64,000 nt of DNA from Haematococcus lacustris. Taxonomy: Eukaryota; Chlorophyta; Chlorophyceae; Chlamydomonadales; Haematococcaceae. The stretch spans positions 10,457,748-10,521,747 of the forward strand of contig JASKMD010000017.1 in NCBI GenBank assembly GCA_030144725.1. Direction: 5' to 3'. The translations under genes were made by a program, and so were the position numbers. Below are positions 6,601-36,779 of the stretch, one piece after another (the stretch's first letter is position 1; the number at the start of each line of letters is the position of its first letter). The notes beneath the pieces are model-generated. The model was not told where the DNA came from and did not search any database. It saw only the letters and a program-made list of their open reading frames with translations.

Positions 6601-9600
6601 GTTTGCGGCCATGAGGTAGATCTCCTTCTGGCGCGACACGCCTGAGGCAAACACCCAGGCCACGCACCACAATGACGCAGCAGCAGCACCTGGGCGGAGG
6701 GTGGGGGTGGAGGGTGGAGGGTGGAGGGCGGAGGGTGGAGGGTGGAGGGTGGAGGGTGGAGGGTGGAGGGTGGAGGGTGGAGGGCGGAGGGCGGAGGGCG
6801 GAGGGCGGAGGGTGGAGGGTGGAGGGCGGAGGGCGGAGGGCGGAGGGTGGAGGGTGGAGGGTGGAGGGTGGAGGGTGGAGGGTGGAGGGTGGAGGGTGGA
6901 GGGTGGAGGGTGGAGGGCGGAGGGTGGAGGGTGGAGGGTGGAGGGTGGAGGGTGGAGGGTGGAGGGTGGAGGGTGGAGGGTGGAGGGTGGAGGGTGGAGG
7001 GTGGAGGGTGGAGGGTGGAGGGTGGAGGGTGGAGGGTGGAGGGTGGAGGGCGGAGGGCGGAGGGTGGAGGGTGGAGGGTGGAGGGCGGAGGGCGGAGGGC
7101 GGAGGGTGGAGGGTGGAGGGTGGAGGGTGGAGGGTGGAGGGTGGAGGGTGGAGGGTGGAGGGTGGAGGGTGGAGGGTGGAGGGTGGAGGGTGGAGGGTGG
7201 AGGGTGGAGGGTGGAGGGTGGAGGGCGGAGGGCAGGGCGGAGGGCGGAGGGCGGAGGGCGGAGGGCGGAGGGCGGAGGGCGGAGGGCGGAGGAATTCACC
7301 TGTGAAGAACACGATCTTCTCCGTGTCCCCGCTCCTCAGCAGCGCCTTCATCGCCTTCACCTTGTCACCAGCCTGCGCACCCAGCCAGCCAGGCGGGGCA
7401 CCCCTGGCCTGCTTCTACACGGTTGGTCAATGACGCTGAGCAATTGCACCCAGCCATACACAACGTGGCTGCTAGGCTGCCCCTGCTGCTGCCCTGCTGC
7501 TGCCCCTGCTGCTGCCCCTGCTGCTGCTGCCCCCTGCTTCCTTGCTGCCCCTGCTTCCTTGCTGCCCCGGTAGCTCTTGCTCTCACCGCTACCACAAGGC
7601 CGGCTATGCTGCCTCCAGTCCACCTACCCACTGGTCACCTGGCCTCACCCCTGGCCTGCCAGTGCTTGCAGCCTGACCTGGGTGTACTTCTTGGCCGCCA
7701 GCTGCCAGTTGGCCTGGCGCTTGGCCACCTTTGCAATGCGTGTCAGCACCAGGGTGCGCTCCTCAGCGCTCACCACGTCCTTGCCTGGCGTCATGGCGTC
7801 CGCCATCTCCTGAGACCAGCAGAGGGGGCGACAGCAGCAGCAGCAGCAGCAGCAGCAGCAATGGAATGTGGAGCAGCAGGGGGCGGAACTGGGGCAGGGG
7901 CAGCAGGGGCTGGGGCAGCACGATAAGGGATAGGGCAGGGTAGGGTGGGCTGAGGTGGGGGCCAGATGCCAAGGTGCTTGCCCTGCGCCCTGCGCCCTGT
8001 GCCCTGTGCTGCGGTGCGCTGTGCCATGGCTCCATCACACCACACCCTGCTGCTTGGCGCTGCCTGCCCTGCTGCTGCCCTGAGCTGCCAGCGCTGCGCC
8101 CCGCCCCCTGCACTGACGTCAGTGATGACCACGTCGTGTTCCACACACAGCTCCAGCGCTCGAGAGTATTGCAGCGCCGCAATCAGCATGCGCACCGCCT
8201 TGTCAAAGTGGCCGTGCTGCATGAAGAACTCGGCGCACCTGCGGGGGCAGCGGGGGGCAGGCCAGGGCAGCGGGGGGCAGGCCAGGGCAGGGGTGTGGTG
8301 TGGTATGATGGACAGGCTAGGCGTCTGTACCCAGCGCTGAGCTGGCTGGCCCCACTAGGGCTGAACTCAGCTGCAGGGGCAAGGGGACCACAGCAGGGGC
8401 CGGGGCCGGGCCCAGGGCAATGGGCAGGGGGCGGCGGGCAGGGGTGATGGGCGGGGGGCAGGGGGCGGCGGGCAGGGGGCAGGGTGGGGCAGGGGGACGG
8501 GGCAAGAGGCAGGGGCTGGAGGCCACCTGGTGTATAGTGCGGGGTCAGAGCTGGCGCTGGTCAGGTCGTCCGTGATGTGCGTGAGCACGTCAAACAGCTG
8601 CGCAGCAAAGCACATGTCCACCGCCTTGCTCATCTTCCCGCCCTTCATGTACAGCATGGCGGCGCGCTCGTGCTCCCCCTGCACCCGGTGCCAGCAGCAG
8701 CGCAGCCAGAGGCTACCAGCAGGCAGGCAGGGCGCCACCACCAGACTCACTCCGCCTCACCCTGCAGCCACACAGCCCTGCAGCCAGCCAGCAGCGCTCA
8801 AAGGCCTCGCCCTGACCCCTGCGGCTGCTTAGCCAGCTGGCAGCCAGGTGTGGGCAGTAGCACCTTCACCACCCTCACCCTTCACCCAGTGTCCCTTAGC
8901 ACCCAGCAGGCAGGCCACACAGGCGCCCCTTACCCTCACCACCCTCACCACCTGGACAGCACCGTATGCAACAGGCAGGCATCAGCAGCCGCAGACCGTC
9001 TGCCAGCCTGCCCGCCAGCCAGCCTGTCCGTCAGCAAACCAGTCCAACTCAAGGCAAGGTGGGGCACACAGCCGCAAGGTCAGCTGCGCAGCTGCTTCAT
9101 CATCAAACATATGAGCCATGTCCAATCTGCATCCTTGCGGCCACCTCGCGAGTCACACCTTCTCATTGAGGTAGTCCGCGGCTTCCACCATCACCGCCGG
9201 CGTGCTCTTCAGTGCAAGGTTTACGAGTTCGCTGTCCAGCTCGTACCGTTTGGCCAGGCGCACGCCGTGGCTGTAGCGCCGGGCCAGGGCAAAGAACTTT
9301 ATGGCCTCGCTGACCCGCTCCGCAGCTTCATATTGGCGCGCGAGGTGGAAGGCGGCGGCAGGGTCCCCGGTGCGCGCCACCTGCAGCCAGGAGCCAGGCA
9401 GCACCCTTAGCTGGGCCAGAGCCCCACACATTGAGCCATCTCGCTAGCTCCCGCTGCCCAGCCTTACAATGCCCTTAGCATGGGAACCCTTCCCTAGCAG
9501 CGGACTTCAACCTCGCTCGTTGCAATGGATAGAGAGGCCGCACTTGCAGTCGGGGGTCGCGGTCATACTACTCTTCCCCGCGCCCACCTCCTCCTCTGCT

Positions 9601-15600: not shown

Positions 15601-18600
15601 GTGCGTCCATGTCTTCAGCAGCAATCAATTTGATTTGGACACATTCCCAGATGAGCGTGCCATTAGCAAGTGGCTGGATAACGCTGCTGTGCGTGGGCGC
15701 TACCGCCTTTGATTGGGCCTATTGCTTTAAATTGACATTTTTGTTGTGCGCTATGGGGCCCAATAGGGCCGCGCTATGAACATGACAGTCCCAATCTGAG
15801 CCATGACACTTTGTGCTATGAAATTGGAAAGAGGCCAAATGAAAAAAAAAACACTGGTGCCAACCCTACCCCTGACCCCGCCCCCCCCCAGCCCCTGCCC
15901 CTCCTGCCCCATCCCCTGCTCCATGCGCCCCTAGCAGTGCAGCCATAGCCTGAGTGGACCTGCGGCGCCTCACAGCCCGGGTCAGGTCGGGTGAGGCCAT
16001 CCGTCACTGTGCTGCTGCTGCTGCTGGCCCTGCTGCTGCTGGCCCTGCTGCTGCTGCTGCTGCTGCTGGCCCTGCTGCTGCTGCTGCTGGCCCTGCTGCT
16101 GCTGCTGCTGGCCCTGCTGCTGCTGCTGGTGCATCAGACCACCTTGATGGCTCGGAATGCCTCGTCCATGTTGCCCGTGGCCAGGTGGTAGGAGAAGTCG
16201 AGCAACGCTGTCTTTGTGGCGTGGTCTCCCTCCTAACCAGGGCAAGGCAGTGGACAGCCGTGTCGGGTCGTGTGGAGTCAGGACGGGTGGGGTGGTGCTG
16301 GGCGGGGTGGGTCAGCACAGGGCGGAGGGGCCAGGGCAGCGTGGGTTGGGTTGGGTTGGGTTGGGTCAGGTGGTAAGAGGCGTCACGCGGCTGGCATCCA
16401 CTCATGAGTCATGAGGTGAGAGGCGAGGCGAGGTGGGTTGCGGCAGGGTGCTGATGAGAGTCAGGATGCAGGTGAGAGGTCAGCAGTGAGTCCTCGTGGG
16501 GGCAGCAGGCGTGTACCCCACCCCTTTGGGTGGTGACCCCCCACCCCACCTCACCCCGCTAGGCCCTGGCCCTGGCCCCACCTGCATGCCTGCAAAGCCG
16601 CGCATCAACACCCGGGCAATGTTGGAAGCTGATGCCGCCGCAGACTGGCCAGACAGGGGCAGCAGGGCAGGCTTGTTGACCACCAGGTGGGGCGCCTGGA
16701 TGGCTATCAGGCTCTTTGCACCTGATCTCCCACACACCAGCGCACACAGGAGGGGCAGGCGGGCAGCAGGTAGCAGGCAGGCGGCAGGTGGCAGTAGCAG
16801 TCAGGCAGGCAAACAGTGGCGCTTGCGGCAGTAGTAGGTAGGTATGCAGCAGCAGCAGCAGCAGCAGGGAGGCGGCAGTGGGTGGGTGGGTGGGCGACCT
16901 CCCTTGCGGGCCCCCTGTGCCGCACCAGTGCCATCCAGTGGCTGGTACTCCTGCAGCAGCACGCCATGGTCCGGGCTCACGAACAGCAGCGCCACCTCTG
17001 CCACCACGCCCTCACTGCCCAGCATGTCCTCGCCTGGCCGTGACACCGCCTGCAGGCCAGGCAGGCAGCAGCGAAATCTGGGGACGAGGAGGAGGAGGAG
17101 GAGGAGGAGGAGGAGGAGGAGGAGGAGGAGGAGGAGGAGGAGGAGGAGGAGGAGGAGGAGGAGGAGGAGGAGGAGGGGTTCAGGGGCAGGGCGGAGCTGG
17201 TGACGCTCCTCAGGCGCCAGTCACCTCTAGCTAGGTTTCCAGAGGCAGGGCTGACACTGGGCAGATGAGCAGGCGGGTGGGGAGGTGTGGGTGAACGGAG
17301 GGTTGGTGAATGGGCCAGGGTGGGTCTTGCAGCACATGAGGGGGTGGGGTGCTGTAGTGCAGTGCAAGCAGGAGGCCGTGCATGAGGCCCGGGGTAGGTC
17401 CTTGGCCCCCTGTGCAGCGCCCCCTCCCCCTCACCTACCAGGGTTTGCACGGCCAGCACCTTACTCTCCACGCTGTCCCAGGCCATGACCTGCGGGATGC
17501 GGTTGTCCTGCAGCCAGCACCACAACACCACACCCAGCCGCACCTCACCACCATCCCTGCCCGCCCCTGCCCGCCCCTGCCCGCCCCTGCCCCTCCCTGC
17601 CCGCCCCTGCCCGTCCCTGCCCGCCCCTGCCTCTCCCTGCCCGCCCCTGCCCCTCCCTGCCCGCCCCTGCCTCTCCCTGCCCGCCCCTGCCCCTCCCTGC
17701 CCGCCCCTGCCTCTCCCTGCCCCTCCCTGCCCGCCCCTTGCCTCTCCCTGCCCGCCCCTGCCCGCCCCTGCCCCTCCCTGCCCGCCCCTGCCCTCCCTGC
17801 CCGCCCCTGCCCCTCCCTGCCCGCCCCTGCCCGCCCCTGCCCGCCCCTGCCTCTCCCTGCCCGCCCCTGCCCTCCCTGCCCGCCCCTGCCCGTCCCTGCC
17901 CGCCCCTGCCTCTCCCTGCCCGCCCCTGCCCCTCCCTGCCCGCCCCTGCCTCTCCCTGCCCGCCCCTGCCCCTCCCTGCCCGCCCCTGCCTCTCCCTGCC
18001 CCTCCCTGCCCGCCCCTGCCCCTCCCTGCCCGCCCCTGCCTCTCCCTGCCCGCCCCTGCCCCTCCCTGCCCGCCCCTGCCCCTCCCTGCCCGCCCCTTGC
18101 CTCTCCCTGCCCGCCCCTGCCCGCCCCTGCCCCTCCCTGCCCGCCCCTGCCCGCCCCTGCCCCTCCCTGCCCGCCCCTGCCCTCCCTGCCCGCCCCTGCC
18201 TCTCCCTGCCCGCCCCTGCCCGCCCCTGCCCTCCCTGCCCGCCCCTGCCCCTCCCTGCCTGCCCCTGCCCGCCCCTGCCCTCCCTGCCCGCCCCTGCCTC
18301 TCCCTGCCCGCCCCTGCCCGCCCCTGCCCTCCCTGGCCGTCCCTGCCCGCCCCTTGCCTCTCCCTGCCCGCCCCTGCCCGCCCCTGCCCCTCCCTGCCCG
18401 CCCCTGCCCCTCCCTGCCCGCCCCTGCCCGTCCCTGCCCGCCCCTGCCCGTCCCTGCCCGCCCCTGCCCCTCCCTGCCCGCCCCTGCCTCTCCCTGCCCG
18501 CCCCTGCCCCTCCCTGCCCGCCCCTGCCCCTCCCTGCCCGCCCCTGCCCGCCCCTGCCCCTCCCTGCCCGCCCCTGCCCGCCCCCGCCCGCCCCTGCCCC

Positions 18601-21600
18601 TCCCTGCCTGCCCCTGCCCGTCCCTGCCCGCCCCTGCCTCTCCCTGCCCGCCCCTGCCCCTCCCTGCCCGCCCCTGCCTCTCCCTGCCCGCCCCTGCCCC
18701 TCCCTGCCCGCCCCTGCCTCTCCCTGCCCCTCCCTGCCCGCCCCTTGCCTCTCCCTGCCCGCCCCTGCCCGCCCCTGCCCCTCCCTGCCCGCCCCTGCCT
18801 CTCCCTGCCCGCCCCTGCCCTCCCTGCCCGCCCCTGCCTCTCCCTGCCCGCCCCTGCCCTCCCTGCCCGCCCCTGCCCCTCCCTGCCCGCCCCTGCCCGC
18901 CCCTGCCCGCCCCTGCCCCTCCCTGCCCGCCCCTGCCCGCCCCTGCCTCTCCCTGCCCCTCCCTGCCCGCCCCTTGCCTCTCCCTGCCTCTCCCTGCCCC
19001 TCCCTGCCCGCCCCTGCCTCTCCCTGCCCGCCCCTGCCCCTCCCTGCCCGCCCCTGCCCCTCCCTGCCCGCCCCTGCCTCTCCCTGCCCGCCCCTGCCCC
19101 TCCCTGCCCGCCCCTGCCCGCCCCTGCCCGCCCCTGCCCGCCCCTGCCCCTCCCTGCCCGCCCCTGCCCGCCCCTGCCCCTCCCTGCCCGCCCCTGCCCT
19201 CCCTGCCCGCCCCTGCCTCTCCCTGCCCGCCCCTGCCCGCCCCTGCCCTCCCTGCCCGCCCCTGCCCCTCCCTGCCTGCCCCTGCCCGCCCCTGCCCTCC
19301 CTGCCCGCCCCTGCCTCTCCCTGCCCGCCCCTGCCCGCCCCTGCCCTCCCTGGCCGTCCCTGCCCGCCCCTTGCCTCTCCCTGCCCGCCCCTGCCCGCCC
19401 CTGCCCCTCCCTGCCCGCCCCTGCCCCTCCCTGCCCGCCCCTGCCCGTCCCTGCCCGCCCCTGCCCGTCCCTGCCCGCCCCTGCCCCTCCCTGCCCGCCC
19501 CTGCATCTCCCTGCCCGCCCCTGCCCCTCCCTGCCCGCCCCTGCCCCTCCCTGCCCGCCCCTGCCCGCCCCTGCCCCTCCCTGCCCGCCCCTGCCCGCCC
19601 CCGCCCGCCCCTGCCCCTCCCTGCCTGCCCCTGCCCGTCCCTGCCCGCCCCTGCCCGCCCCTGCCCCTCCCTGCCCGCCCCTGCCCGCCCCCGCCCGCCC
19701 CTGCCCCTCCCTGCCTGCCCCTGCCCGTCCCTGCCCGTCCCTGCCCGCCCCTGCCTCTCCCTGCCCCTCCCTGCCCGCCCCTGCCTCTCCCTGCCCGCCC
19801 CTGCCCCTCCCTGCCCGCCCCTGCCCGCCCCTGCCTCTCCCTGCCCCTCCCTGCCCGCCCCTTGCCTCTCCCTGCCCGCCCCTGCCCGCCCCTGCCCCTC
19901 CCTGCCCGCCCCTGCCCTCCCTGCCCGCCCCTGCCCCTCCCTGCCCGCCCCTGCCCGCCCCTGCCCGCCCCTGCCTCTCCCTGCCCGCCCCTGCCCTCCC
20001 TGCCCGCCCCTGCCCGTCCCTGCCCGCCCCTGCCTCTCCCTGCCCGCCCCTGCCCCTCCCTGCCCGCCCCTGCCTCTCCCTGCCCGCCCCTGCCCCTCCC
20101 TGCCCGCCCCTGCCTCTCCCTGCCCCTCCCTGCCCGCCCCTGCCCGCCCCTGCCCCTCCCTGCCCGCCCCTGCCCGCCCCCGCCCGCCCCTGCCCCTCCC
20201 TGCCTGCCCCTGCCCGTCCCTGCCCGCCCCTGCCTCTCCCTGCCCGCCCCTGCCCCTCCCTGCCCGCCCCTGCCTCTCCCTGCCCGCCCCTGCCCCTCCC
20301 TGCCCGCCCCTGCCTCTCCCTGCCCCTCCCTGCCCGCCCCTTGCCTCTCCCTGCCCGCCCCTGCCCGCCCCTGCCCCTCCCTGCCCGCCCCTGCCTCTCC
20401 CTGCCCGCCCCTGCCCTCCCTGCCCGCCCCTGCCTCTCCCTGCCCGCCCCTGCCCTCCCTGCCCGCCCCTGCCCCTCCCTGCCCGCCCCTGCCCGCCCCT
20501 GCCCGCCCCTGCCCCTCCCTGCCCGCCCCTGCCCGCCCCTGCCTCTCCCTGCCCCTCCCTGCCCGCCCCTTGCCTCTCCCTGCCTCTCCCTGCCCCTCCC
20601 TGCCCGCCCCTGCCTCTCCCTGCCCGCCCCTGCCCCTCCCTGCCCGCCCCTGCCCCTCCCTGCCCGCCCCTGCCTCTCCCTGCCCGCCCCTGCCCCTCCC
20701 TGCCCGCCCCTGCCCGCCCCTGCCCGCCCCTGCCCGCCCCTGCCCCTCCCTGCCCGCCCCTGCCCGCCCCTGCCCCTCCCTGCCCGCCCCTGCCCTCCCT
20801 GCCCGCCCCTGCCTCTCCCTGCCCGCCCCTGCCCGCCCCTGCCCTCCCTGCCCGCCCCTGCCCCTCCCTGCCTGCCCCTGCCCGCCCCTGCCCTCCCTGC
20901 CCGCCCCTGCCTCTCCCTGCCCGCCCCTGCCCGCCCCTGCCCTCCCTGGCCGTCCCTGCCCGCCCCTTGCCTCTCCCTGCCCGCCCCTGCCCGCCCCTGC
21001 CCCTCCCTGCCCGCCCCTGCCCCTCCCTGCCCGCCCCTGCCCGTCCCTGCCCGCCCCTGCCCGTCCCTGCCCGCCCCTGCCCCTCCCTGCCCGCCCCTGC
21101 ATCTCCCTGCCCGCCCCTGCCCCTCCCTGCCCGCCCCTGCCCCTCCCTGCCCGCCCCTGCCCGCCCCTGCCCCTCCCTGCCCGCCCCTGCCCGCCCCCGC
21201 CCGCCCCTGCCCCTCCCTGCCTGCCCCTGCCCGTCCCTGCCCGCCCCTGCCCGCCCCTGCCCCTCCCTGCCCGCCCCTGCCCGCCCCCGCCCGCCCCTGC
21301 CCCTCCCTGCCTGCCCCTGCCCGTCCCTGCCCGTCCCTGCCCGCCCCTGCCTCTCCCTGCCCCTCCCTGCCCGCCCCTGCCTCTCCCTGCCCGCCCCTGC
21401 CCCTCCCTGCCCGCCCCTGCCCGCCCCTGCCTCTCCCTGCCCCTCCCTGCCCGCCCCTTGCCTCTCCCTGCCCGCCCCTGCCCGCCCCTGCCCCTCCCTG
21501 CCCGCCCCTGCCCTCCCTGCCCGCCCCTGCCCCTCCCTGCCCGCCCCTGCCCGCCCCTGCCCGCCCCTGCCTCTCCCTGCCCGCCCCTGCCCTCCCTGCC

Positions 21601-24600
21601 CGCCCCTGCCCGTCCCTGCCCGCCCCTGCCTCTCCCTGCCCGCCCCTGCCCCTCCCTGCCCGCCCCTGCCTCTCCCTGCCCGCCCCTGCCCCTCCCTGCC
21701 CGCCCCTGCCTCTCCCTGCCCCTCCCTGCCCGCCCCTGCCCGCCCCTGCCCCTCCCTGCCCGCCCCTGCCCGCCCCCGCCCGCCCCTGCCCCTCCCTGCC
21801 TGCCCCTGCCCGTCCCTGCCCGCCCCTGCCTCTCCCTGCCCGCCCCTGCCCCTCCCTGCCCGCCCCTGCCTCTCCCTGCCCGCCCCTGCCCCTCCCTGCC
21901 CGCCCCTGCCTCTCCCTGCCCCTCCCTGCCCGCCCCTTGCCTCTCCCTGCCCGCCCCTGCCCGCCCCTGCCCCTCCCTGCCCGCCCCTGCCTCTCCCTGC
22001 CCGCCCCTGCCCTCCCTGCCCGCCCCTGCCTCTCCCTGCCCGCCCCTGCCCTCCCTGCCCGCCCCTGCCCCTCCCTGCCCGCCCCTGCCCGCCCCTGCCC
22101 GCCCCTGCCCCTCCCTGCCCGCCCCTGCCCGCCCCTGCCTCTCCCTGCCCCTCCCTGCCCGCCCCTTGCCTCTCCCTGCCTCTCCCTGCCCCTCCCTGCC
22201 CGCCCCTGCCTCTCCCTGCCCGCCCCTGCCCCTCCCTGCCCGCCCCTGCCCCTCCCTGCCCGCCCCTGCCTCTCCCTGCCCGCCCCTGCCCCTCCCTGCC
22301 CGCCCCTGCCCGCCCCTGCCCGCCCCTGCCCGCCCCTGCCCCTCCCTGCCCGCCCCTGCCCGCCCCTGCCCCTCCCTGCCCGCCCCTGCCCTCCCTGCCC
22401 GCCCCTGCCTCTCCCTGCCCGCCCCTGCCCGCCCCTGCCCTCCCTGCCCGCCCCTGCCCCTCCCTGCCTGCCCCTGCCCGCCCCTGCCCTCCCTGCCCGC
22501 CCCTGCCTCTCCCTGCCCGCCCCTGCCCGCCCCTGCCCTCCCTGGCCGTCCCTGCCCGCCCCTTGCCTCTCCCTGCCCGCCCCTGCCCGCCCCTGCCCCT
22601 CCCTGCCCGCCCCTGCCCCTCCCTGCCCGCCCCTGCCCGTCCCTGCCCGCCCCTGCCCGTCCCTGCCCGCCCCTGCCCCTCCCTGCCCGCCCCTGCATCT
22701 CCCTGCCCGCCCCTGCCCCTCCCTGCCCGCCCCTGCCCCTCCCTGCCCGCCCCTGCCCGCCCCTGCCCCTCCCTGCCCGCCCCTGCCCGCCCCCGCCCGC
22801 CCCTGCCCCTCCCTGCCTGCCCCTGCCCGTCCCTGCCCGCCCCTGCCCGCCCCTGCCCCTCCCTGCCCGCCCCTGCCCGCCCCCGCCCGCCCCTGCCCCT
22901 CCCTGCCTGCCCCTGCCCGTCCCTGCCCGTCCCTGCCCGCCCCTGCCTCTCCCTGCCCCTCCCTGCCCGCCCCTGCCTCTCCCTGCCCGCCCCTGCCCCT
23001 CCCTGCCCGCCCCTGCCCGCCCCTGCCTCTCCCTGCCCCTCCCTGCCCGCCCCTTGCCTCTCCCTGCCCGCCCCTGCCCGCCCCTGCCCCTCCCTGCCCG
23101 CCCCTGCCCTCCCTGCCCGCCCCTGCCCCTCCCTGCCCGCCCCTGCCCGCCCCTGCCCGCCCCTGCCTCTCCCTGCCCGCCCCTGCCCTCCCTGCCCGCC
23201 CCTGCCCGTCCCTGCCCGCCCCTGCCTCTCCCTGCCCGCCCCTGCCCCTCCCTGCCCGCCCCTGCCTCTCCCTGCCCGCCCCTGCCCCTCCCTGCCCGCC
23301 CCTGCCTCTCCCTGCCCCTCCCTGCCCGCCCCTGCCCCTCCCTGCCCGCCCCTGCCTCTCCCTGCCCGCCCCTGCCCCTCCCTGCCCGCCCCTGCCCCTC
23401 CCTGCCCGCCCCTTGCCTCTCCCTGCCCGCCCCTGCCCGCCCCTGCCCCTCCCTGCCCGCCCCTGCCCGCCCCTGCCCCTCCCTGCCCGCCCCTGCCCTC
23501 CCTGCCCGCCCCTGCCTCTCCCTGCCCGCCCCTGCCCGCCCCTGCCCTCCCTGCCCGCCCCTGCCCCTCCCTGCCTGCCCCTGCCCGCCCCTGCCCTCCC
23601 TGCCCGCCCCTGCCTCTCCCTGCCCGCCCCTGCCCGCCCCTGCCCTCCCTGGCCGTCCCTGCCCGCCCCTTGCCTCTCCCTGCCCGCCCCTGCCCGCCCC
23701 TGCCCCTCCCTGCCCGCCCCTGCCCCTCCCTGCCCGCCCCTGCCCGTCCCTGCCCGCCCCTGCCCGTCCCTGCCCGCCCCTGCCCCTCCCTGCCCGCCCC
23801 TGCCTCTCCCTGCCCGCCCCTGCCCCTCCCTGCCCGCCCCTGCCCCTCCCTGCCCGCCCCTGCCCGCCCCTGCCCCTCCCTGCCCGCCCCTGCCCGCCCC
23901 CGCCCGCCCCTGCCCCTCCCTGCCTGCCCCTGCCCGTCCCTGCCCGCCCCTGCCTCTCCCTGCCCGCCCCTGCCCCTCCCTGCCCGCCCCTGCCTCTCCC
24001 TGCCCGCCCCTGCCCCTCCCTGCCCGCCCCTGCCTCTCCCTGCCCCTCCCTGCCCGCCCCTTGCCTCTCCCTGCCCGCCCCTGCCCGCCCCTGCCCCTCC
24101 CTGCCCGCCCCTGCCTCTCCCTGCCCGCCCCTGCCCTCCCTGCCCGCCCCTGCCTCTCCCTGCCCGCCCCTGCCCTCCCTGCCCGCCCCTGCCCCTCCCT
24201 GCCCGCCCCTGCCCGCCCCTGCCCGCCCCTGCCCCTCCCTGCCCGCCCCTGCCCGCCCCTGCCTCTCCCTGCCCCTCCCTGCCCGCCCCTTGCCTCTCCC
24301 TGCCTCTCCCTGCCCCTCCCTGCCCGCCCCTGCCTCTCCCTGCCCGCCCCTGCCCCTCCCTGCCCGCCCCTGCCCCTCCCTGCCCGCCCCTGCCTCTCCC
24401 TGCCCGCCCCTGCCCCTCCCTGCCCGCCCCTGCCTCTCCCTGCCCGCCCCTGCCCCTCCCTGCCCCTCCCTGCCCGCCCCTGCCCGTCCCTGCCCGCCCC
24501 TGCCCCTCCCTGCCTGCCCCTGCCCGTCCCTGCCCGCCCCTGCCTCTCCCTGCCCGCCCCTGCCTCTCCCTGCCCGCCCCTGCCCGCCCCTGCCCGCCCC

Positions 24601-27226
24601 TTGCCTCTCCCTGCCTCTCCCTGCCCCTCCCTGCCCGCCCCTTGCCTCTCCCTGCCTCTCCCTGCCCCTCCCTGCCCGCCCCTGCCTCTCCCTGCCCGCC
24701 CCTGCCCCTCCCTGCCCGCCCCTGCCCGTCCCTGCCCGCCCCTGCCTCTCCCTGCCCGCCCCTGCCCCTCCCTGCCCGCCCCTGCCTCTCCCTGCCCGCC
24801 CCTGCCCCTCCCTGCCCGCCCCTGCCTCTCCCTGCCCGCCCCTGCCCCTCCCTGCCCGCCCCTGCCTCTCCCTGCCCGCCCCTGCCCTCCCTGCCCGCCC
24901 CTGCCTCTCCCTGCCCGCCCCTGCCCGCCCCTGCCGTCCCCTCCCGCCCCTGCCCCTCCCTGCCCGCCCCTTGCCTCTCCCTGCCCGCCCCTGCCCGCCC
25001 CTGCCCCTCCCTGCCCGCCCCTGCCCGCCCCTGCCCCTCCCTGCCCGCCCCTGCCCTCCCACCCGCCCCTGCCCCTCCCTGCCCGCCCCTGCCCGCCCCT
25101 GCCTCTCCCTGCCCGCCCCTGCCCTCCCTGCCCGCCCCTGCCCGTCCCTGCCCGCCCCTGCCTCTCCCTGCCCGCCCCTGCCCCTCCCTGCCCGCCCCTG
25201 CCTCTCCCTGCCCGCCCCTGCCCCTCCCTGCCCGCCCCTGCCTCTCCCTGCCCCTCCCTGCCCGCCCCTGCCCGTCCCTGCCCGCCCCTGCCTCTCCCTG
25301 CCCGCCCCTGCCCCTCCCTGCCCGCCCCTGCCTCTCCCTGCCCGCCCCTGCCCCTCCCTGCCCGCCCCTGCCTCTCCCTGCCCGCCCCTGCCCTCCCTGC
25401 CCGCCCCTGCCTCTCCCTGCCCGCCCCTGCCCGCCCCTGCCCCTCCCTGCCCGCCCCTGCCCGCCCCTGCCCGCCCCTGCCTCTCCCTGCCCGCCCCTGC
25501 CCTCCCTGCCCGCCCCTGCCCGTCCCTGCCCGCCCCTGCCTCTCCCTGCCCGCCGCTGCCCCTCCCTGCCCGCCCCTGCCTCTCCCTGCCCGCCCCTGCC
25601 CCTCCCTGCCCGCCCCTGCCTCTCCCTGCCCCTCCCTGCCCGCCCCTGCCCGTCCCTGCCCGCCCCTGCCTCTCCCTGCCCGCCCCTGCCCCTCCCTGCC
25701 CGCCACTGCCTCTCCCTGCCCGCTCCTGCCCCTCCCTGCCCGCCCCTGCCTCTCCCTGCCCGCCCCTGCCCCTCCCTGCCCGCCCCTGCCCTCCCCTGCC
25801 GTCCCCTCCCGCCCCTGCCCCTCCCTGCCCGCCCCTTGCCTCTCCCTGCCCGCCCCTGCCCGCCCCTGCCCCTCCCTGCCCGCCCCTGCCCGCCCCTGCC
25901 CCTCCCTGCCCGCCCCTGCCCTCCCTGCCCGCCCCTGCCTCTCCCTGCCCGCCCCTGCCCTCCCTGCCCGCCCTTGCCTCTCCCTGCCCGCCCCTGCCCG
26001 CCCCTGCCCCTCCCTGCCCGCCCCTGCCCCTCCCTGCCCGCCCCTGCCCGTCACTGCCCGCCCCTGCCTCTCCCTGCCCGCCCCTGCCCCTGCCTGCCCG
26101 CCCCTGCCTCTCCCTGCCCGCCCCTGCCCCTCCCTGCCCGCCCCTGCCCGCCCCTGCCCTCCCTGCCCGCCCCTGCCCCTCCCTGCCCGCCCCTGCCCGC
26201 CCCTGCCCCTCCCTGCCCGCCCCTGCCCTCCCTGCCCGCCCCTGCCTCTCCCTGCCCGCCCCTGCCCGCCCCTGCCCTCCCTGCCCGCCCCTGCCCCTCC
26301 CTGCCTGCCCCTGCCCGCCCCTGCCCTCCCTGCCCGCCCCTGCCTCTCCCTGCCCGCCCCTGCCCGCCCCTGCCCTCCCTGGCCGTCCCTGCCCGCCCCT
26401 TGCCTCTCCCTGCCCGCCCCTGCCCGCCCCTGCCCCTCCCTGCCCGCCCCTGCCCCTCCCTGCCCGCCCCTGCCCGTCCCTGCCCGCCCCTGCCCGTCCC
26501 TGCCCGCCCCTGCCCCTCCCTGCCCGCCCCTGCCTCTCCCTGCCCGCCCCTGCCCCTCCCTGCCCGCCCCTGCCCCTCCCTGCCCGCCCCTGCCCGCCCC
26601 TGCCCCTCCCTGCCCGCCCCTGCCCGCCCCCGCCCGCCCCTGCCCCTCCCTGCCTGCCCCTGCCCGTCCCTGCCCGCCCCTGCCTCTCCCTGCCCGCCCC
26701 TGCCCCTCCCTGCCCGCCCCTGCCCTCCCTGCCCGCCCCTGCCTCTCCCTGCCCGCCCCTGCCCGCCCCTGCCAGCCCTGCCTCTCCCTGCCCGCCCCTG
26801 CCCGCCCCTGCCCTCCCTGCCCGCCCCTGCCTCTCCCTGCCCGCCCCTGCCCCTCCCTGCCCGCCCCTGCCCGCCCCTGCCGTCCTCTCCCGCCCCTGCC
26901 CGCCCCTGCCCCTCCCTGCCCGCCCCTGCCCGCCCCTGCCGTCCTCTCCCGCCCCTGCCCGCCCCTGCCCTCCCTGCCAGCCCCTGCCCGCCCCTGCCCT
27001 CCCTGCTCGCCCCTGCCCGCCCCTGGTCCCCCTGCGCCCTGCCTTGCCTTGCCAAAGTCGTACACCAGTGTGGTCTGGTTCTCGAAGCAGTGCACAAACA
27101 TGCGCGTGTCCCTGGAAGCCTCCTTGCTGTGCGCCAGGGCTGCCACCATGGTGCCAGCGCTGTTCACCCTGATGACGTCCACTGTCAGCGCCACAGGCCC
27201 AGCCACATCACCAGACAGCAGCATGC
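3608..27226 (-). CDS. IFT140: IFT140, intraflagellar transport complex A subunit (5' partial)
   Basis: IFT-A subunit of retrograde intraflagellar transport: N-terminal WD40 propellers followed by a long TPR-like solenoid. Minus-strand exons: 27048-27226, 17439-17507, 16926-17049, 16582-16721, 16143-16232, 11878-11950, 11312-11403, 10909-10995, 10470-10556, 9956-10090, 9588-9743, 9159-9380, 8527-8678, 8118-8238, 7678-7809, 7300-7372, 6526-6641, 6143-6226, 5450-5518, about 4810-4980, 4276-4416, 3608-3766. Diagnostic stretches include [40 protein letters not shown], and FYTKAQ joined to [20 protein letters not shown]. The last exon ends in an acidic tail (EVLDDDN). About 890 residues are visible against roughly 1,400 for the family. 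The first exon seen is late in the WD40 region, so about 500 N-terminal residues are missing. Three introns appear to use GC donors (after 27048, 6526 and 10909). Identity is secure; single borders may be off by a few bases. Confidence 0.93.
5108..5150. repeat. 12-bp tandem repeat in an IFT140 intron
   Basis: About 3.5 copies of AAGGTCATGGTC in the intron between the exons at 4810-4980 and 5450-5518. Confidence 0.8.
5556..6135. repeat. (CCCCG)n pentanucleotide array in an IFT140 intron
   Basis: About 115 copies of CCCCG fill nearly all of the intron between exons 5450-5518 and 6143-6226, with a few slips (near 5590, 5610, 5910 and 6090). The transcribed minus strand is CGGGG-rich, so the intron RNA could form G-quadruplexes. 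Confidence 0.97.
6321..6384. repeat. (GGT)n and (GCT)n microsatellites
   Basis: About 13 GGT triplets followed by about 7 GCT/CTG triplets, in an IFT140 intron. Confidence 0.9.
6695..7291. repeat. GGAGGGY heptamer array in an IFT140 intron
   Basis: About 85 copies of the 7-bp unit GGAGGGT or GGAGGGC, with the T/C variants clustered. It occupies most of the intron between exons 6526-6641 and 7300-7372 and stops about 10 bases from the splice donor at 7299. The open frames through it (WRVEGGG and PPPSTLH repeats) are artefacts of the 7-bp period. Confidence 0.97.
7830..7861. repeat. (CAG)n microsatellite
   Basis: About 10 CAG triplets in an IFT140 intron. Confidence 0.9.
12117..14184. repeat. 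25-bp satellite array, about 82 copies, in an IFT140 intron
   Basis: Unit CAGATCGCACCGCTGCCTAG plus TCACT. Copies are nearly identical apart from a G/A site (GATCG or GATCA). Variant order repeats at 800 bp (32 units): A-A-G-A-G-A blocks start at 12430 and 13230, others at 12905 and 13705, and A-A pairs at 12730 and 13530. The array lies in the 4.2-kb intron between exons 11878-11950 and 16143-16232, just beside the hAT element. Confidence 0.97.
14222..14229. repeat. Left 8-bp target-site duplication of the hAT element
   Basis: GTGCCAAC, identical to 15857-15864 on the other side of the element. Confidence 0.95.
14230..15856 (+). mobile_element. hAT-superfamily DNA transposon with decayed transposase
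   Basis: The 1,627-bp element has a 15-bp perfect terminal inverted repeat (CAGTG followed by ten T) at both ends. It is flanked by a perfect 8-bp target-site duplication GTGCCAAC (14222-14229 and 15857-15864). A CAGTG start and an 8-bp duplication are hAT hallmarks. Inside, on the plus strand, is a transposase relic whose C-terminus carries the hAT dimerisation signature [21 protein letters not shown]-richer subterminal regions at both ends repeat a GCTAT core. The element sits in an IFT140 intron, opposite to the gene. Perfect ends suggest a recent insertion. Confidence 0.93.
14416..15712 (+). pseudogene. hAT transposase relic
   Basis: Coding remnants are spread over several frames. 14416-14784 begins with an ATG. 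14666-14968 gives another transposase-like stretch ([16 protein letters not shown]). 15056-15712 is one frame broken by a stop at about 15425 and holds the RNase-H-like C-terminal part. Its end contains the dimerisation region ([20 protein letters not shown], then HLNVCVHVF). Stops also interrupt the frame near 14966-15055. A functional protein would need several repairs, so I call it inactive. An unrecognised intron could explain one of the breaks. Confidence 0.8.
15857..15864. repeat. Right 8-bp target-site duplication of the hAT element
   Basis: GTGCCAAC, identical to 14222-14229. Confidence 0.95.
16009..16130. repeat. Interrupted (CTG)n microsatellite in an IFT140 intron
   Basis: About 35 CTG/GCC triplets directly downstream of the exon at 16143-16232 in transcript direction. 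Confidence 0.9.
17082..17178. repeat. (GGA)n microsatellite in an IFT140 intron
   Basis: About 31 GGA triplets between exons 16926-17049 and 17439-17507. The glycine and arginine runs in the open frames here are artefacts. Confidence 0.95.
17540..27035. repeat. 9.5-kb GC-rich minisatellite filling one IFT140 intron
   Basis: Short units of 10-11 bp (CTGCCCGCCC, CTGCCCCTCC, CTGCCTCTCC, CTGCCCGTCC and slips) fill the intron between exons 17439-17507 and 27048-27226. A higher-order period of 1,596 bp is visible. The rare marker CTGCATCTCC falls at 19501, 21097 and 22693, and TGGCCGT falls at 19351, 20947 and 22543. Outer copies of TGGCCGT at 18334, 23650 and 26380 are out of register. No stop codons occur in several frames, giving open frames over 3,000 codons on both strands that are not genes. 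The transcribed strand is G-rich. Confidence 0.96.
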
Positions 27227-27388
27227 CTGCAGCCACGCGGGGAGCCAACAAGCAGGGGGGCAGGCAAGCGGGCAAGTAGGCGGGCAGGCAGGCAGGCAGG
27301 CAGGCAGGCAGCAGGGCTTGATTAGGCTCGGAGCAAGAGGCAGGCAGGCAGGGTTCAAGACGACGAACAACGCAGGGTGGAGGCAGGC

Positions 27389-30204
<2,816 letters not shown>

Positions 30205-30704
30205 NNNNNNNNNNNNNNNNNNNNNNNNNNNNNNNNNNNNNNNNNNNNNNNNNNNNNNNNNNNNNNNNNNNNNNNNNNNNNNNNNNNNNNNNNNNNNNNN
30301 NNNNNNNNNNNNNNNNNNNNNNNNNNNNNNNNNNNNNNNNNNNNNNNNNNNNNNNNNNNNNNNNNNNNNNNNNNNNNNNNNNNNNNNNNNNNNNNNNNNN
30401 NNNNNNNNNNNNNNNNNNNNNNNNNNNNNNNNNNNNNNNNNNNNNNNNNNNNNNNNNNNNNNNNNNNNNNNNNNNNNNNNNNNNNNNNNNNNNNNNNNNN
30501 NNNNNNNNNNNNNNNNNNNNNNNNNNNNNNNNNNNNNNNNNNNNNNNNNNNNNNNNNNNNNNNNNNNNNNNNNNNNNNNNNNNNNNNNNNNNNNNNNNNN
30601 NNNNNNNNNNNNNNNNNNNNNNNNNNNNNNNNNNNNNNNNNNNNNNNNNNNNNNNNNNNNNNNNNNNNNNNNNNNNNNNNNNNNNNNNNNNNNNNNNNNN
30701 NNNN
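30205..30704. other. Assembly gap, 500 N
   Basis: Exactly 500 N, the usual placeholder for a gap of unknown size. The sequence on the two sides differs in character: a pure AGGC array before it and lower-GC gene sequence after it. The join is therefore not supported by the sequence itself. Confidence 0.99.
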
Positions 30705-30825: not shown

Positions 30826-33800
30826 CTGCAAAGCGTCGTCAAGGTTACCAACGCCGCTGCATATCCAGCCCATCCTATAAACGAAGTGGGTTGTGAATGA
30901 AACACCAGCCTGCGCAAACACAGTTAGTACATCATGCTGTCAAGGTATGAGGAGAGAAGCATACGGTGCATGTGTGTACCTGGATGACGTAGGTGACGAT
31001 GAGGACGTCGCATGTTGCAGCGAATGCATTGGGGTCGCGTAGGTCAAGCCGCTCAGCTTGTGGGCCGCCAGTCAACAAAACAATCCTCCTTAGCTTCGTC
31101 GCCAGGACATCTGCATCAATATTTCAAGGCCAAGGAAGGGCAATTGACATGCAACATAATGGGTATAGACTAGGAATGGCATGAAGCCGTGATATGTGAT
31201 GTGATTGCATTAACGAGTGCATGTAAGGCGTGCATGCATGCAACCAAGGTACACAAACCTGCAGACCAGCCACGCTTAGCACCCTCCTCCTTTACGACTT
31301 GCCGTAGCCATGCATGCAGACCCGTCGCCTTCGTTTGGGAATTGACGTGTAGAATGATGGGTGTTGCATGAGGCGCGGCGCCGTCGGTAGGGTGGAGGCC
31401 ACCTTTGTACAAGCGCTTCAAGATGATGAACATGATACCCTCGTTGGTGGTGATGACCAAACGCTGACCCTCCCACATGGCTCTGTCGTCATAGCGGAGC
31501 TGCAACATCGCAGTACATGGAGGGTGTTGCAATGAACGTGCAAGGCAAAGAGAATCATCACTAACATTACAAACACACACAACTACCCCGAACATGAACA
31601 CACCATTTTGGCCGTTTGGATGGGCTCCCCAATCCGAGCCATGATGTCAGCCACGTCAGGCATCATTAGGCGGTACTGCATGGCCAGCACTGATGTCGCG
31701 CACACCGCCAACAATGACATGGTGTGGCTCACCACCTGCAACGATATATATAGTTGGGTTGTGGGAAGGGGGAATGGGTGGAGGAGGCATAAGGGTAGAG
31801 GTAGGGGGAGGGGGTGTAGTCGGTAGGGGAGGGAGAGGGGGAATAGGCAGAGTAAACATAGGAGAAGGGGCTAACAAAGGGGGAGGGGGATGGGGGTGTG
31901 CTCGTGTGTGAGGGATGGGATGGAGTTGGAGGTTTGGGTAAGTGTTGGAAGGGTAGGGTAGTTGATGAGGAGGTTGGGGTGGGGTGAGTTTGAGGGTGAG
32001 GGTTGAGCTACCTTCATGTCGCCAGCACCCTTTAGAAGGCGCGAGCAAGACAGCATGGCCCGTAGTTGCCCCCACTCGTCCAGTACAAGGGAGTACTGCG
32101 GAAGCACCTGCCCCTCTATTCTGGGGCTCAGCATATGCGCACGTAAGGCTTCCATTTTCCTCAAGCTGGGAGCACAAATGACAATGCGAGGGGTGTTCAC
32201 CGGCGTGACGTCCACTAACCGCACCGCACTGTCGTTGTACGCCAATAAAGCCCATTCCCGCGAAAAGGCCGATCATTTGGCTCACCAACGACTTGCGGTA
32301 AACAACTAGCATGAGAGGAGTGTCTACAGATAGGCGCCTAATTGCTTCCACCATGGCCACAGTCTTGCCGGCACCCGTGGGAGCATCCACGCAGGTCACT
32401 CCAGGAGCCAACAAGGTGGCGGGGTTAATGACCTGTGTCAGCGTGGGTCAGGGTCAGTGTATATTAGGGGTAGGGTTTAAGATGGGAGTTTGGGTAGGTA
32501 ACAAGTACATGGATAAAGTCTGCCGCAAAACATCGGCAAAGCTGGTATTGGTGATTACTGCCGATGAGCATCGGCATACTTTGTATCATTGCTTCCTTAC
32601 CGACGCATAATACCCGCGCTAGAGAAGATGGTAGGGATAAGGTGAAGGTGAAGGTGGAGGCGAGGTCAAGGGAGGGGGTACAAGTAGGGGTGGGGTAGGT
32701 GGTGAGATGGGAAGGTGGACGGAGGGGAAGAGAGGAAAGGTAAGCACTAAGTACTGCGGATTATGACAAACTGAAGGTAAACATCGGCAGAATTGTAGAG
32801 CATTATAGAGAATTATTGTTGTTTGGGGAGTTGCACGGGGTGGGGGTGGTAAAAATGTGGGTCAGGGTTAGTGTTACGTTTAATGTTGGTGTAAGGATGA
32901 GGGTGAAAGTTGGGCAGTGCGGCATGTGTAGGAAAGTGTAAATCATGGCATGCCTTAAAAAAGCAGGCAGAGGGATTCACACACACACCTGGTGCAACGA
33001 TACCGTGCGTCCAGTTGCTAGGTCCTTAGGGAGAGGGATGATTGGGGCGGCCAACCTAGTTTCATCATCCATCTTCATGATGGTGACCTGCAAAATGATG
33101 GCTTGTATGGGATGGATAATACAGGGTGTAGCAAGGTGGAGGTGGGTGATCGATGGTGAAGGTGGGTGGTAGGGTGTGGGAGGGTAAATACATATGTCAG
33201 TGGGGAAGGGGTTGATGTTTGATATCAAGGTACGTGAGATGGAGGGGGACAAGGCAAGGAATGTGGCGTTGTGGTTGTTGATGACACTATTTGTGTGGAT
33301 GGTGATAACTTGAAAGTCGAACATCACTTACACACCTTTTTGCAAGACCAACATCCCCAGCCAACGTCCCCGCCATCGGGCTTGTGAGCGTACCCGGTAG
33401 GGCGCGATGAAACAGGCCGATTGTCTTGAACGTCACAGCACGGCGAGTAGCAATCTTGCATGTGCTCGAAGTCCCATATGACTTTCACGTGACCATCGAC
33501 GTCCAGCAGTGGAACAAGAGGCGAGGTCTCCATACTACACAGTCGAGGAAAGTTAGACAAATGTAGGCGAGACAAGCACGACATACAAAGAACCAGACGT
33601 ACACACGACCACAAACACAACAGCTACCATCATCTTCATGATGTGAACTTACCTGGTGACGACGGACATGAGTCAACACTGTTGCGGGTATATAGGTACA
33701 TGTGACACGTGGTACCACTCACCCCCCAATGGGAACCATGGGCCCTCGTTGACCCGCCAGTACATCTGGGCGAGGAGGCCGCGGGGTGCGGCGGTCATGG

Positions 33801-36006
33801 TCGGCATCGGGAATGAACATAGCGAAGCCGGGGCCCAGCTTGAACCTCAACTCATCGAGCGAGGGGCCATCGATCATCTGCGTAGGTATGTGGTACAAAC
33901 GCATTCGGTGGCTGTGGTGGGACGCAGTTACCAAATCGTATTCTGGGAGCCATAACGGCATCAACGCACTTTCAACGGTGTCGAGACCGGGCACTCGAGC
34001 ATGCCATTGTCTTCCAAGCACATACTGCAGGCCGCGATCCAATGCGCCAAAGAGCCATGGGTGAGCCACGAATGGAAACGGATAAGGAGTGGAGAGTTGC
34101 CTTCCTGCAAAACAGTACACGCAATAGTTCTAAACACCCCCGTACATAACGGCATCTAATGAATAATAGTCAATCTAGCAAGCTAGGATACACCCACCAC
34201 ACCATGGCCTCCACGTCACTTACAATAAACCGTTGCCGGATGCGGTTTTGGTGGTACATAACAACATGCTGCAACCACTCATTGAGACAGGGGACAACTT
34301 GAGACGAATTGTCCACCTCCACCTCCACGCCAAGGATCAAACTACAAGGAGCAGACCTATCGTACTTAAACCTGTGATGAACGTGGCACCTGCACCAATG
34401 CATACAACACCATGGCACACTAACCATCGTAGCCATATTATATTTCTCCATCGACCGTTCAGCATTAAATACATCATCACGCACAATTACACAAACCCAC
34501 ACACACACACACCCAACGCACACATCCACCCCACACCCACACACACATACCCCACCGCACACACGCACATATTGTTACATCCAAACAAACACACACAACC
34601 ACACCCGCACCCACACCAACACCCACACCAACACCCACACACCCACACACCCACACACCCACCCAAAACTTTACCCACACCCACACCCACACACACAACC
34701 ACAACCGCACCCACACCCACACCCACACCCCCACCCACCCTAATATCCAAAACCGCACCCACATCCACACCCACACCCACACCCACAGCCACAGCCACAC
34801 CCACACCCACACCCACTCCAACACCAACACCCACACCCACCCTAACAACCATAACAGCACCCACAACCACACCCACACCCACACCCACAGCCACACCCAC
34901 ACCCACACCCTCAGACATACATGCATCTACTCACACGCGTTTTATGGGGCCGTATGAGTCGTCGTTCTTGAGCTTGCCTGCTCCCACAACACGCAATTGT
35001 TGGTATTTGGAGTACACAGCGGTGTCCGCAACGAACACGTGCCGCCATGACTGCAAGGCACAAGGTACTAGCATATAAGGCACAAAAGCAATGATACACA
35101 ATCATAACACAGCCACTACAGCATTACTTGGAGTGTAGTTGCAATGGTGCCGATATCTACCTTGACGATGCCGGTCTTAGGACGATGCATCTGTAGCATC
35201 TTGATTGCCCACACTTGGTCGACTTTCAATCGCTTGTCGGCACCGGTCGCCCTTAAAGACGGCGCGAAGAAGGCAACCTCCTTTAGCGCTTGCTGGAGCA
35301 GCCGAGCCCCCACCTCCGCTGCCAGACCCACCCCCGAGGTTGAGGCTCCATCCAACAAGACTTCCGGGAACATGAGGTGCACGCTGAACTTTTCCGCCCA
35401 GCTGCTGTCCGCCATCAACACCTCGCCGGTGTCGGTGAGATGCAGGAGCTCCTTTACAGCACGATATACGTGTGTATACATCCACGCTCGCCCATGTCGT
35501 AACAAAGCCTCGTCGAAGGGCTGCACCATCGCCGGCAGCCACTTTTGTGCATAGCTGCCGATGGGTAGGCCCGCACCTTCCGCCATCGATGCGCCCAAGT
35601 CGCCCAAGTCGGACATGTCCACGATGTTGAATGAGGGAAGGGACATGTCTATGTCAAAGTAGGCGGGGATAGGGAGACGCCCTTTGATGACCTCGAACAC
35701 AGAGTTCCCTAGCACGGTCCCAGGGGAACGATCGGCCAAAGTCGTGTGGACGGTCGTAAACCTCGCGGCGAAAAAGTGAACCGTGGGCGCGGGAGTGCCC
35801 AAGAAGTGAATCCGGTCGCTCCACGGGAACATGGTACCATCTCGGCTGCATTGGCCTAGTGCGCCTTTTAGCTTCGGATGACCATTTGGAAACCGAGACC
35901 GAACAGACATTGTGGTGGGGGGCGGTCGCAATCGAAGTACTTCCTCGTGACGAAGCATATTGTGAGTTAGCGGGGTGTTTGCTTCAACGCCAAGGGGTTG
36001 ACCCAA
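30826..36006 (-). pseudogene. Fused AEP (UL52-like) primase and OBP (UL9-like) SF2 helicase, 3' truncated by the gap
   Basis: Minus-strand exons: 35128-36006, 34935-35050, 34224-34371, 33723-34104, 33336-33534, 32989-33091, 32012-32432, 31604-31735, 31259-31499, 30980-31110 and 30826-30909; the rest is lost in the gap. The primase part shows the AEP catalytic pattern: YFDIDMS, then KFSVHLMFP, then ADTAVYSKYQQLR. A Cys/His cluster (CYSPCC ... H ... CWSCKK, exon 33336-33534) fits the UL52-type zinc motif. The helicase part has Walker A (DAPTGAGKT), motif II (LVLDEWGQL) and the OBP-type segment DVLIVTYVIQAGVSF. UL52 and OBP proteins normally act in DNA replication of herpesviruses, giant viruses and related elements. 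Two frame problems are seen. The join of 34224-34371 to 33723-34104 is out of phase. Exon 32012-32432 has one base too many near 32240-32255. It may be a decayed gene, or an intact one with assembly errors. The start may lie upstream of 36006. Confidence 0.78.
34490..34918. repeat. ACCCAC/CACACC-type microsatellite in a primase-helicase intron
   Basis: About 420 bp of degenerate CACACC, CCCACA and ACCCAC repeats between exons 34224-34371 and 34935-35050. The open frames through it (TPTPTPT and VWVWVWV) are not genes. Confidence 0.9.
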
Positions 36007-36290: not shown

Positions 36291-36343
36291 GTTAATAAGG
36301 TTATAGATTGGGTTTATCGCGTTAATAAGGTTATAGATATGGA
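36291..36343. repeat. Direct repeat of a 21-bp AT-rich motif
   Basis: CGCGTTAATAAGGTTATAGA plus T occurs twice, 26 bp apart, in a short AT-rich segment just before the 117-bp tandem repeat. Confidence 0.8.
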
Positions 36344-36351
36344 TCCAGCCC

Positions 36352-36735
36352 CCCCACTCCTGGGACCCATGCTGCTGCTGCTGCCCAACACCGGGGCAGG
36401 TGGCGGGGAGCGTGGAGGGGGTGGTGCCCACTGCCCCAGCCCCACACCTTGCCCTCCAGCCCCCCCCCTCCCGGGACCCATGCTGCTGCTGCTGCTTCTG
36501 CCCAACACCGGGGCAGGTGGCGGGGAGCGTGGAGGGGGTGGTGCCCACTGCCCCAGCCCCACACCTTGCCCTCCAGCCCCCCCCCTCCCGGGACCCATGC
36601 TGCTGCTGCTGCTTCTGCCCAACACCGGGGCAGGTGGCGGGGAGCGTGGAGGGGGTGGTGCCCACTGCCCCAGCCCCACACCTTGCCCTCCAGCCCCCCC
36701 CCCCCCCAGGACCCATGCTGTTGCTGCTGTAACCA
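36352..36735. repeat. Tandem repeat of about 117 bp, 3.2 copies
   Basis: Copies begin with the same block (GGGACCCATGCTGCTGCTGC) at 36361, 36473 and 36590, with a fourth partial copy at about 36708. The first copy lacks a CTTCTG block, which explains its 112-bp spacing. The 39-residue periodic open frames on both strands come from a period divisible by three. Confidence 0.93.
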
Positions 36736-36779
36736 ATCACCGGGGCAGGTGGGTGTGAGCGTATGCTAGCCTCCATCTT

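Follow-up and report, generated by a model that had tools for sequence, protein, structure and literature searches.

A predicted spliced primase-helicase gene on scaffold C64

The gene described here lies on the minus strand of scaffold C64 in a 308-Mb assembly of the green alga Haematococcus lacustris, at positions 30826-35958 of a 64,000-nucleotide stretch of DNA that we refer to as the window. A first-pass annotation had read it as an intron-rich fusion of a herpes UL52-like primase and a UL9-like origin-binding helicase. This was confirmed in outline, since we find 12 exons and 11 introns, all GT-AG, running from 35958 down to 30826 and encoding an archaeo-eukaryotic primase (AEP) domain and a superfamily 2 (SF2) helicase, but the UL52 cluster and the Pfam domains did not hold up, and the gene is incomplete as assembled. 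The exons do lie on one strand with splice phases that stay in frame from exon 1 to exon 7 and again from exon 9 to exon 12, but one frame break falls within exon 8. The features are listed below with their support, which includes the public partial protein HaLaN_07991 and copies of the gene on scaffolds C89, C542 and C127.

Exon 1, 35128..35958, minus strand: AEP primase domain, motifs I (YFDIDM) and II (KFSVH)
Exon 2, 34935..35050, minus strand: AEP motif III (ADTAVYSKYQQLRVVGAGK); GT-AG joins, shuffle test of the motif III block
Exon 3, 34224..34371, minus strand: linker; GT-AG joins, entire peptide within HaLaN_07991
Exon 4, 33970..34104, minus strand: linker; joins, HaLaN_07991, a like exon in the C89 copy by eye
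Exon 5, 33723..33877, minus strand: linker (GPGFAMFIPDAD); joins, HaLaN_07991
Exon 6, 33336..33534, minus strand: cysteine cluster CC-X27-C-X2-C, not UL52-type; joins, HaLaN_07991, CC and CxxC in the C89 copies too
Exon 7, 32989..33087, minus strand: linker; joins, HaLaN_07991
Exon 8, 32012..32432, minus strand: helicase motifs I (DAPTGAGKT), Ia and II (DEWG); one internal frame break as assembled
Exon 9, 31604..31735, minus strand: helicase (AMQYRLMMPDVADIM); joins, HaLaN_07991, homologous exon in the C89, C542 and C127 copies
Exon 10, 31253..31499, minus strand: helicase; joins, HaLaN_07991, DNA-level match to the C89, C542 and C127 copies
Exon 11, 30980..31110, minus strand: helicase (LRRIVLLTGG ... 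VLIVTYVIQ); joins, HaLaN_07991
Exon 12, 30826..30909, minus strand: motif V region (AGVSF), last exon before the join; joins, HaLaN_07991
N run, 30205..30704, no strand: 500 N, a probable scaffold join by which the gene is truncated at its 3' end

Peptides from exons 3-12 cover 577 of the 604 residues of HaLaN_07991, with 10 of 11 pieces found whole and the remaining one at 80 of 81 residues. As HaLaN_07991 does not contain exons 1-2, the link between primase and helicase at the window locus rests on splice phase. A paralogue, V8C86DRAFT_3205669, extends from the AEP motifs to helicase motif VI in one predicted protein, but Walker A is missing from the model. AlphaFold models of the two proteins are of low confidence (predicted local distance difference test 31.6 for HaLaN_07991 and 29.1 for V8C86DRAFT_3205669). 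Exon 8 is 421 nt long and is read in two frames, compared with 420 nt in one open frame for its C89 counterpart. Both of its halves are found in HaLaN_07991, which reads through the break site, indicating that another assembly contains an intact version; the break in the window comes from variation between strains, from misassembly or from decay. A single-frame exon 4 spanning 34129-33723 was ruled out because the C89 copy and HaLaN_07991 give separate exons 4 and 5. The protein search, in which only H. lacustris proteins were matched, and a 656-residue Pfam query were built with that single-frame version.

The AEP catalytic motifs named in the first-pass annotation, I (DhD/DhE), II (SxH) and III (hD), are all present in that order in exons 1-2. 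The motif III block outscores all 2000 shuffles of an AEP open reading frame (ORF) from scaffold C83, described below, and the catalytic residues D102, D104, S192, H194 and D286 are invariant in a three-sequence family alignment, motif I also in a five-sequence alignment.

For the C-terminal part, SF2 hallmarks comprise motifs I, II and the motif V region in the window, and motif VI in the C89 copy (ALGRRR) and in V8C86DRAFT_3205669 (AVGRRR); the window copy meets the join before its motif VI exon. ResIII (cut-off 22.5 bits) was the sole Pfam model above cut-off, scoring 27.3, 24.3, 23.7 and 23.8 bits with four queries and 21.7 bits, below cut-off, with the 656-residue query. PHROG profiles labelled 'replication' and 'DNA helicase' matched HaLaN_07991 at 5.5e-5 and 2.1e-4. 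In PDB profile searches, four replication origin-binding protein (OBP) sequences, presumably all from herpesviruses, came top at E 0.003-0.004; RAD25, the SF2 enzyme ranked after them, had E 1.1-1.5. With the PDB OBP, the segments of motifs V and VI line up in the right order, in an alignment that is not significant alone (-2 bits), and a search with the single C89 helicase sequence did not find OBP. The C-terminal part thus reads as an SF2 helicase with some leaning towards UL9/OBP, and no more can be said.

Broken and partial copies of the gene and their common introns

Own-genome searches and exon-wise tblastn located relatives of the gene at no fewer than seven places on five scaffolds, all copy counts being lower bounds.

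C64: the window and 4.385 Mb
C89: 2.42 and 2.44 Mb
C476: 6.760 and 6.768 Mb
C542: 2.23 and 4.81 Mb
C127: 2.528-2.548 Mb

As judged from tblastn alignment ends, the exon 8/9 boundary falls at the same residue in the window, C89 and C542 copies, the exon 9/10 boundary in these and in C127, and the exon 11/12 boundary in the window and C89 copies and, from the left side, in C127; splice signals themselves were read in the window and C89 copies. Since copies with common intron places are only 49-53% identical in exon 1, the introns are older than that divergence, in keeping with the long nuclear residence proposed at first pass. Over 720 codons, the window and C89 copies differ by 0.31, 0.21 and 0.54 at codon positions 1, 2 and 3, and nonsynonymous divergence (dN) is 0.32 compared with a synonymous divergence (dS) of 1.49, which is near saturation (dN/dS about 0.2). 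These values argue for long past purifying selection on the family. A tree of six copies over 117 columns gave no well-supported placement of the window copy.

DNA comparison of the copy clusters rests in part on 120 of 155 matches. Among the matches listed, the two C89 copies sit in the arms of a 36-kb palindrome (2.412-2.449 Mb), and the C476 copies at 6.758-6.763 Mb in a 4.7-kb inverted duplication, with arms 96.8-99.0% identical in both cases; these inverted duplications may be real or an assembly effect. The C89 plus copy has an in-frame TAG and the minus copy a 614-column insertion in exon 5. A 586-bp segment (C127:2541472-2542057), 95% identical to the C89 exon 5 insert, splits exon 10 of one C127 copy, while the other C127 copy consists of exons 9-11 only within the 6 kb read. 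On C542, two head-to-head palindromes of truncated helicase exons (2.2346 and 4.8137 Mb, arms about 82% identical) contain copies that begin inside exon 8 and carry stops; the palindromic unit thus occurs twice, at places separated by 2.6 Mb, in versions 88% identical to each other. Only exons 1-3 were found in the 30 kb read on C476, and only part of exon 1 at C64:4.385 Mb.

Some further observations concern the surroundings of these copies. The insert common to C89 minus exon 5 and C127 is a dispersed repeat of ∼0.6 kb that has entered exons of two different family members, and read-through of the C542 palindromes could give hairpin RNA. Next to the C89 and C476 copies lie TTAGGG arrays together with a repeat of ∼1 kb. 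A telomere-linked helicase was considered and rejected, as the ∼1-kb repeat, which is headed by TTAGGG units, occurs at 98 places genome-wide (internal and contig-end, counting short pieces) and a 36-base pattern has 25,768 overlapping matches genome-wide. Arrays of at least three TTAGGG units were absent from the window and from the scanned stretches of C64:4.385, C542, C127 and C83.

A second locus on scaffold C83 and the flanks of the gene

A locus close to the first-pass description exists, but elsewhere in the genome.

C83:5435738-5437288: AEP/UL52-zinc ORF, 517 aa
C83:5369746-5370219, 5426076-5426561 and 5432728-5433201: Herpes_ori_bp helicase pieces

The 517-aa open frame contains YFDLD, KISLH, VDQSVYSSFRSFRTLGSTKLG and a canonical C-X6-H-X19-C-X4-C finger, lies ∼2.5 kb upstream of the 5.433-Mb helicase piece and has a single match in the genome, namely itself. 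Herpes_ori_bp (PF02399, cut-off 20 bits) is above cut-off at the three helicase places (5.37 and 5.43 Mb), with 62.4 bits and E 3e-17 for the best piece, and Pfam can therefore detect an OBP helicase in the H. lacustris genome. Retroelement-like ORFs were seen by eye between and around the pieces, and the locus is also interrupted by stops. The AEP motif III and helicase motif I regions of this locus can be aligned with those of the window family from the same genome. In contrast to that family, C83 has its AEP domain and a canonical zinc finger in one open frame and a helicase clearly recognized by PF02399, yet its pieces are separated and broken by insertions. The C83 locus may be a younger arrival than the window family.

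As for the flanks of the window gene, the 500-N run at 30205-30704 is the single one in the window. Since 500 N is, we assume, the mark that 3D-DNA scaffolding leaves at joins, the run is probably a contig join, and the window to its left would then be another contig. The HiFi/Hi-C assembly of H. lacustris (SAG 192.80) is described as scaffolded with 3D-DNA (PMC10400597). Across the join, two minus-strand ORFs at 4567-5058 and 8370-8756 match the TPR_IF140_C and TPR_IF140-IFT172 models in a Pfam scan and are read as IFT140 exons. By eye, minisatellite occupies most of the 13 kb from about 17400 to 30204, as a C-rich array followed by a CAGG tetranucleotide array that reaches the N run; a tandem repeat of ∼3 units of roughly 120 bp lies directly upstream of the gene (36337-36740); and intron 2 (34480-34930) is mostly a CACCC-type simple repeat. 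None of 10 window ORFs and none of 8 C89 ORFs (one being the copy's own last exon) had a viral Pfam match, in a scan that covered a minority of the ORFs.

Origin of the family and comparison with known systems

Fusions of an AEP with a UL9-like SF2 helicase are described for mimivirus R8, African swine fever virus pF1055L, Ostreid herpesvirus 1 and some mriyaviruses (PMC11253617), and the primases of nucleocytoplasmic large DNA viruses and herpesviruses form a clade among AEPs (PMC5862659). The first-pass proposal that an intron-rich algal nuclear gene has this viral AEP-UL9 architecture finds support (PMC11253617, PMC2373305). We lean, with some reserve, towards an old nuclear primase-helicase family built like mimivirus R8, whose N-terminal domain would be an AEP of the PrimPol/UL52 clade; its ancestor probably came from a large DNA virus or a virus-like replicon, and most of the family is read as decaying. 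In the ancestor, an ATP-driven motor would have opened duplex DNA and the AEP domain would have laid primers on the exposed strand, one polypeptide serving its replicon as initiator and primase. After capture, the gene would have gained introns and given rise to further nuclear copies, some of them through inverted duplication nearby, before most of the family began to decay. The most economical account is that a replication gene of viral type was captured long ago and turned into a nuclear family with introns, the C83 locus being a more canonical relative.

Several results qualify the first-pass description. The UL52-type Cys/His cluster reported at first pass was not found: the UL52 zinc finger is given as C-X4-H-X29-C-X4-C (PMC8187027), and such a C-H-C-C pattern is absent from window exons 3-7 and from the C89 copy, whose cluster is of the same CC-X27-C-X2-C type as exon 6 but one residue longer. 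The Pfam check proposed in the first-pass annotation also failed. PF03121 (Herpes_UL52) gave no match at E up to 5 or, in further searches, up to 10; as PF03121 also misses the C83 ORF despite its canonical zinc pattern, its silence at the window says little. PF02399 remained below cut-off at 16.4, 11.0, 17.1 and 17.1 bits, and at 10.3 bits for C89, compared with 62.4 bits for the C83 control. While the predicted SF2 helicase with Walker A and DEWG stands, its OBP identity is less sure: hhalign gave E 1.1e-7 with the C83 OBP piece and 0.51 with an OBP motif V-VI piece, whereas a UvsW-type helicase of a phage gave 5e-8, which suggests no preference for OBP over the phage enzyme. The latter, a phage match to the helicase, was recognized as UvsW-type from its own Pfam matches and was kept as a control. 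Finally, two protein-guided scans of viral contigs with the window family returned no relative, nor did one with the C83 helicase piece. In two motif-pattern scans (17 and 41 stretches), AEP motif III was present in 0 of 522 ORFs of at least 120 aa and the best hidden Markov model match had E 0.16, so the pattern matches look like chance. A viral donor is therefore inferred, as are biochemical activity and any present use.

Part of this evidence would suit a wholly non-viral origin, in which a cellular PrimPol was fused to a generic SF2 helicase within the alga: no Pfam model except ResIII exceeds its cut-off, hhalign does equally well with a UvsW-type helicase and the viral contigs yielded no relative. 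We nevertheless regard such an origin as very improbable, given that origin-binding proteins head the PDB profile searches and that the same domain pairing is documented in viruses. A multi-copy family dispersed over five scaffolds, with a C542 palindromic unit at two distant sites, could also represent the intron-containing replication gene of an unrecognized resident mobile element, either a transposon or a virus-like element, that has for the most part died out. However, the C542 pair aside, DNA matches between clusters in the stretches read were exons or dispersed repeats among the matches listed, and no transposase, integrase or capsid was recognized among the few ORFs scanned, making a mobile element quite unlikely.

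It is also unlikely, if somewhat less so, that this is a domesticated host gene, with one or more copies kept by selection and still producing a primase-helicase that serves the alga (e.g. in re-priming or antiviral defence). A dN well below dS between copies, invariant catalytic residues and predicted proteins in two public assemblies are consistent with such a gene, but every other copy read (C89, C542, C127, C476 and C64:4.385 Mb) is broken or partial, the V8C86DRAFT_3205669 model without Walker A comes from another assembly, and the window copy, frame-broken and cut as assembled, would not yield a full protein. The domestication suggested at first pass is thus not supported. The family might tentatively be viewed as a separate eukaryotic line of primase-initiators of AEP-helicase type, a spliced nuclear replication module of viral type that would have its own CC/CxxC metal site, would have resided in the algal nucleus for the time needed to gain common introns and diverge into ∼50%-identical paralogues under purifying selection, and would include at least one working copy, although we consider this doubtful. 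If one copy works, a photosynthetic eukaryote would possess one more primase-initiator system. What matters is that a single green alga holds two such loci that differ greatly, the C83 locus being canonical and insertion-broken, the other spliced, divergent and multi-copy, so that it becomes testable for how long a viral-type replication gene can last and remain under selection in a nucleus, and how introns enter it.

None of the papers listed by literature searches reports this kind of gene in Haematococcus, and the words virus, viral, primase and helicase do not occur in PMC7617258 (main text); the apparent lack of earlier reports stands on these two observations. AEP-OBP fusions are already known in viruses and a brown alga; new here is a spliced, divergent, multi-copy green-algal form. 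It has the DSSxxxKFSxH block of PrimPol. Like human PrimPol and herpes UL52, it has the AEP motifs DxD/E, SxH and hD, but those proteins have no helicase, and their three-Cys-one-His zinc finger is replaced by CC-X27-CxxC in H. lacustris (PMC5295015, PMC8187027). Compared to the viral fusions of mimivirus R8, pF1055L, Ostreid herpesvirus 1 and the mriyavirus SF2_hel, the likeness lies in a single predicted protein with an AEP followed by an SF2 helicase, in the AEP catalytic motifs and in the UL9 leaning (PMC11253617), whereas the H. lacustris gene has 11 spliceosomal introns, is nuclear and multi-copy, and belongs to a family with a divergent zinc region, PF02399 scores below cut-off and homologues found within H. 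lacustris only. The OBP ORF in region C of Ectocarpus siliculosus, reported in 2008 together with an OBP pseudogene, likewise joins an AEP to a UL9-like helicase and lies in the nuclear genome of an alga, and neither it nor the H. lacustris gene has a UL52-type zinc domain, as far as the account in PMC2373305 goes. The Ectocarpus ORF differs in being complete, with 1162 aa, a BLAST match of 6e-11 to a mimivirus helicase and a PF02399 annotation, and in belonging to a brown alga (PMC2373305).

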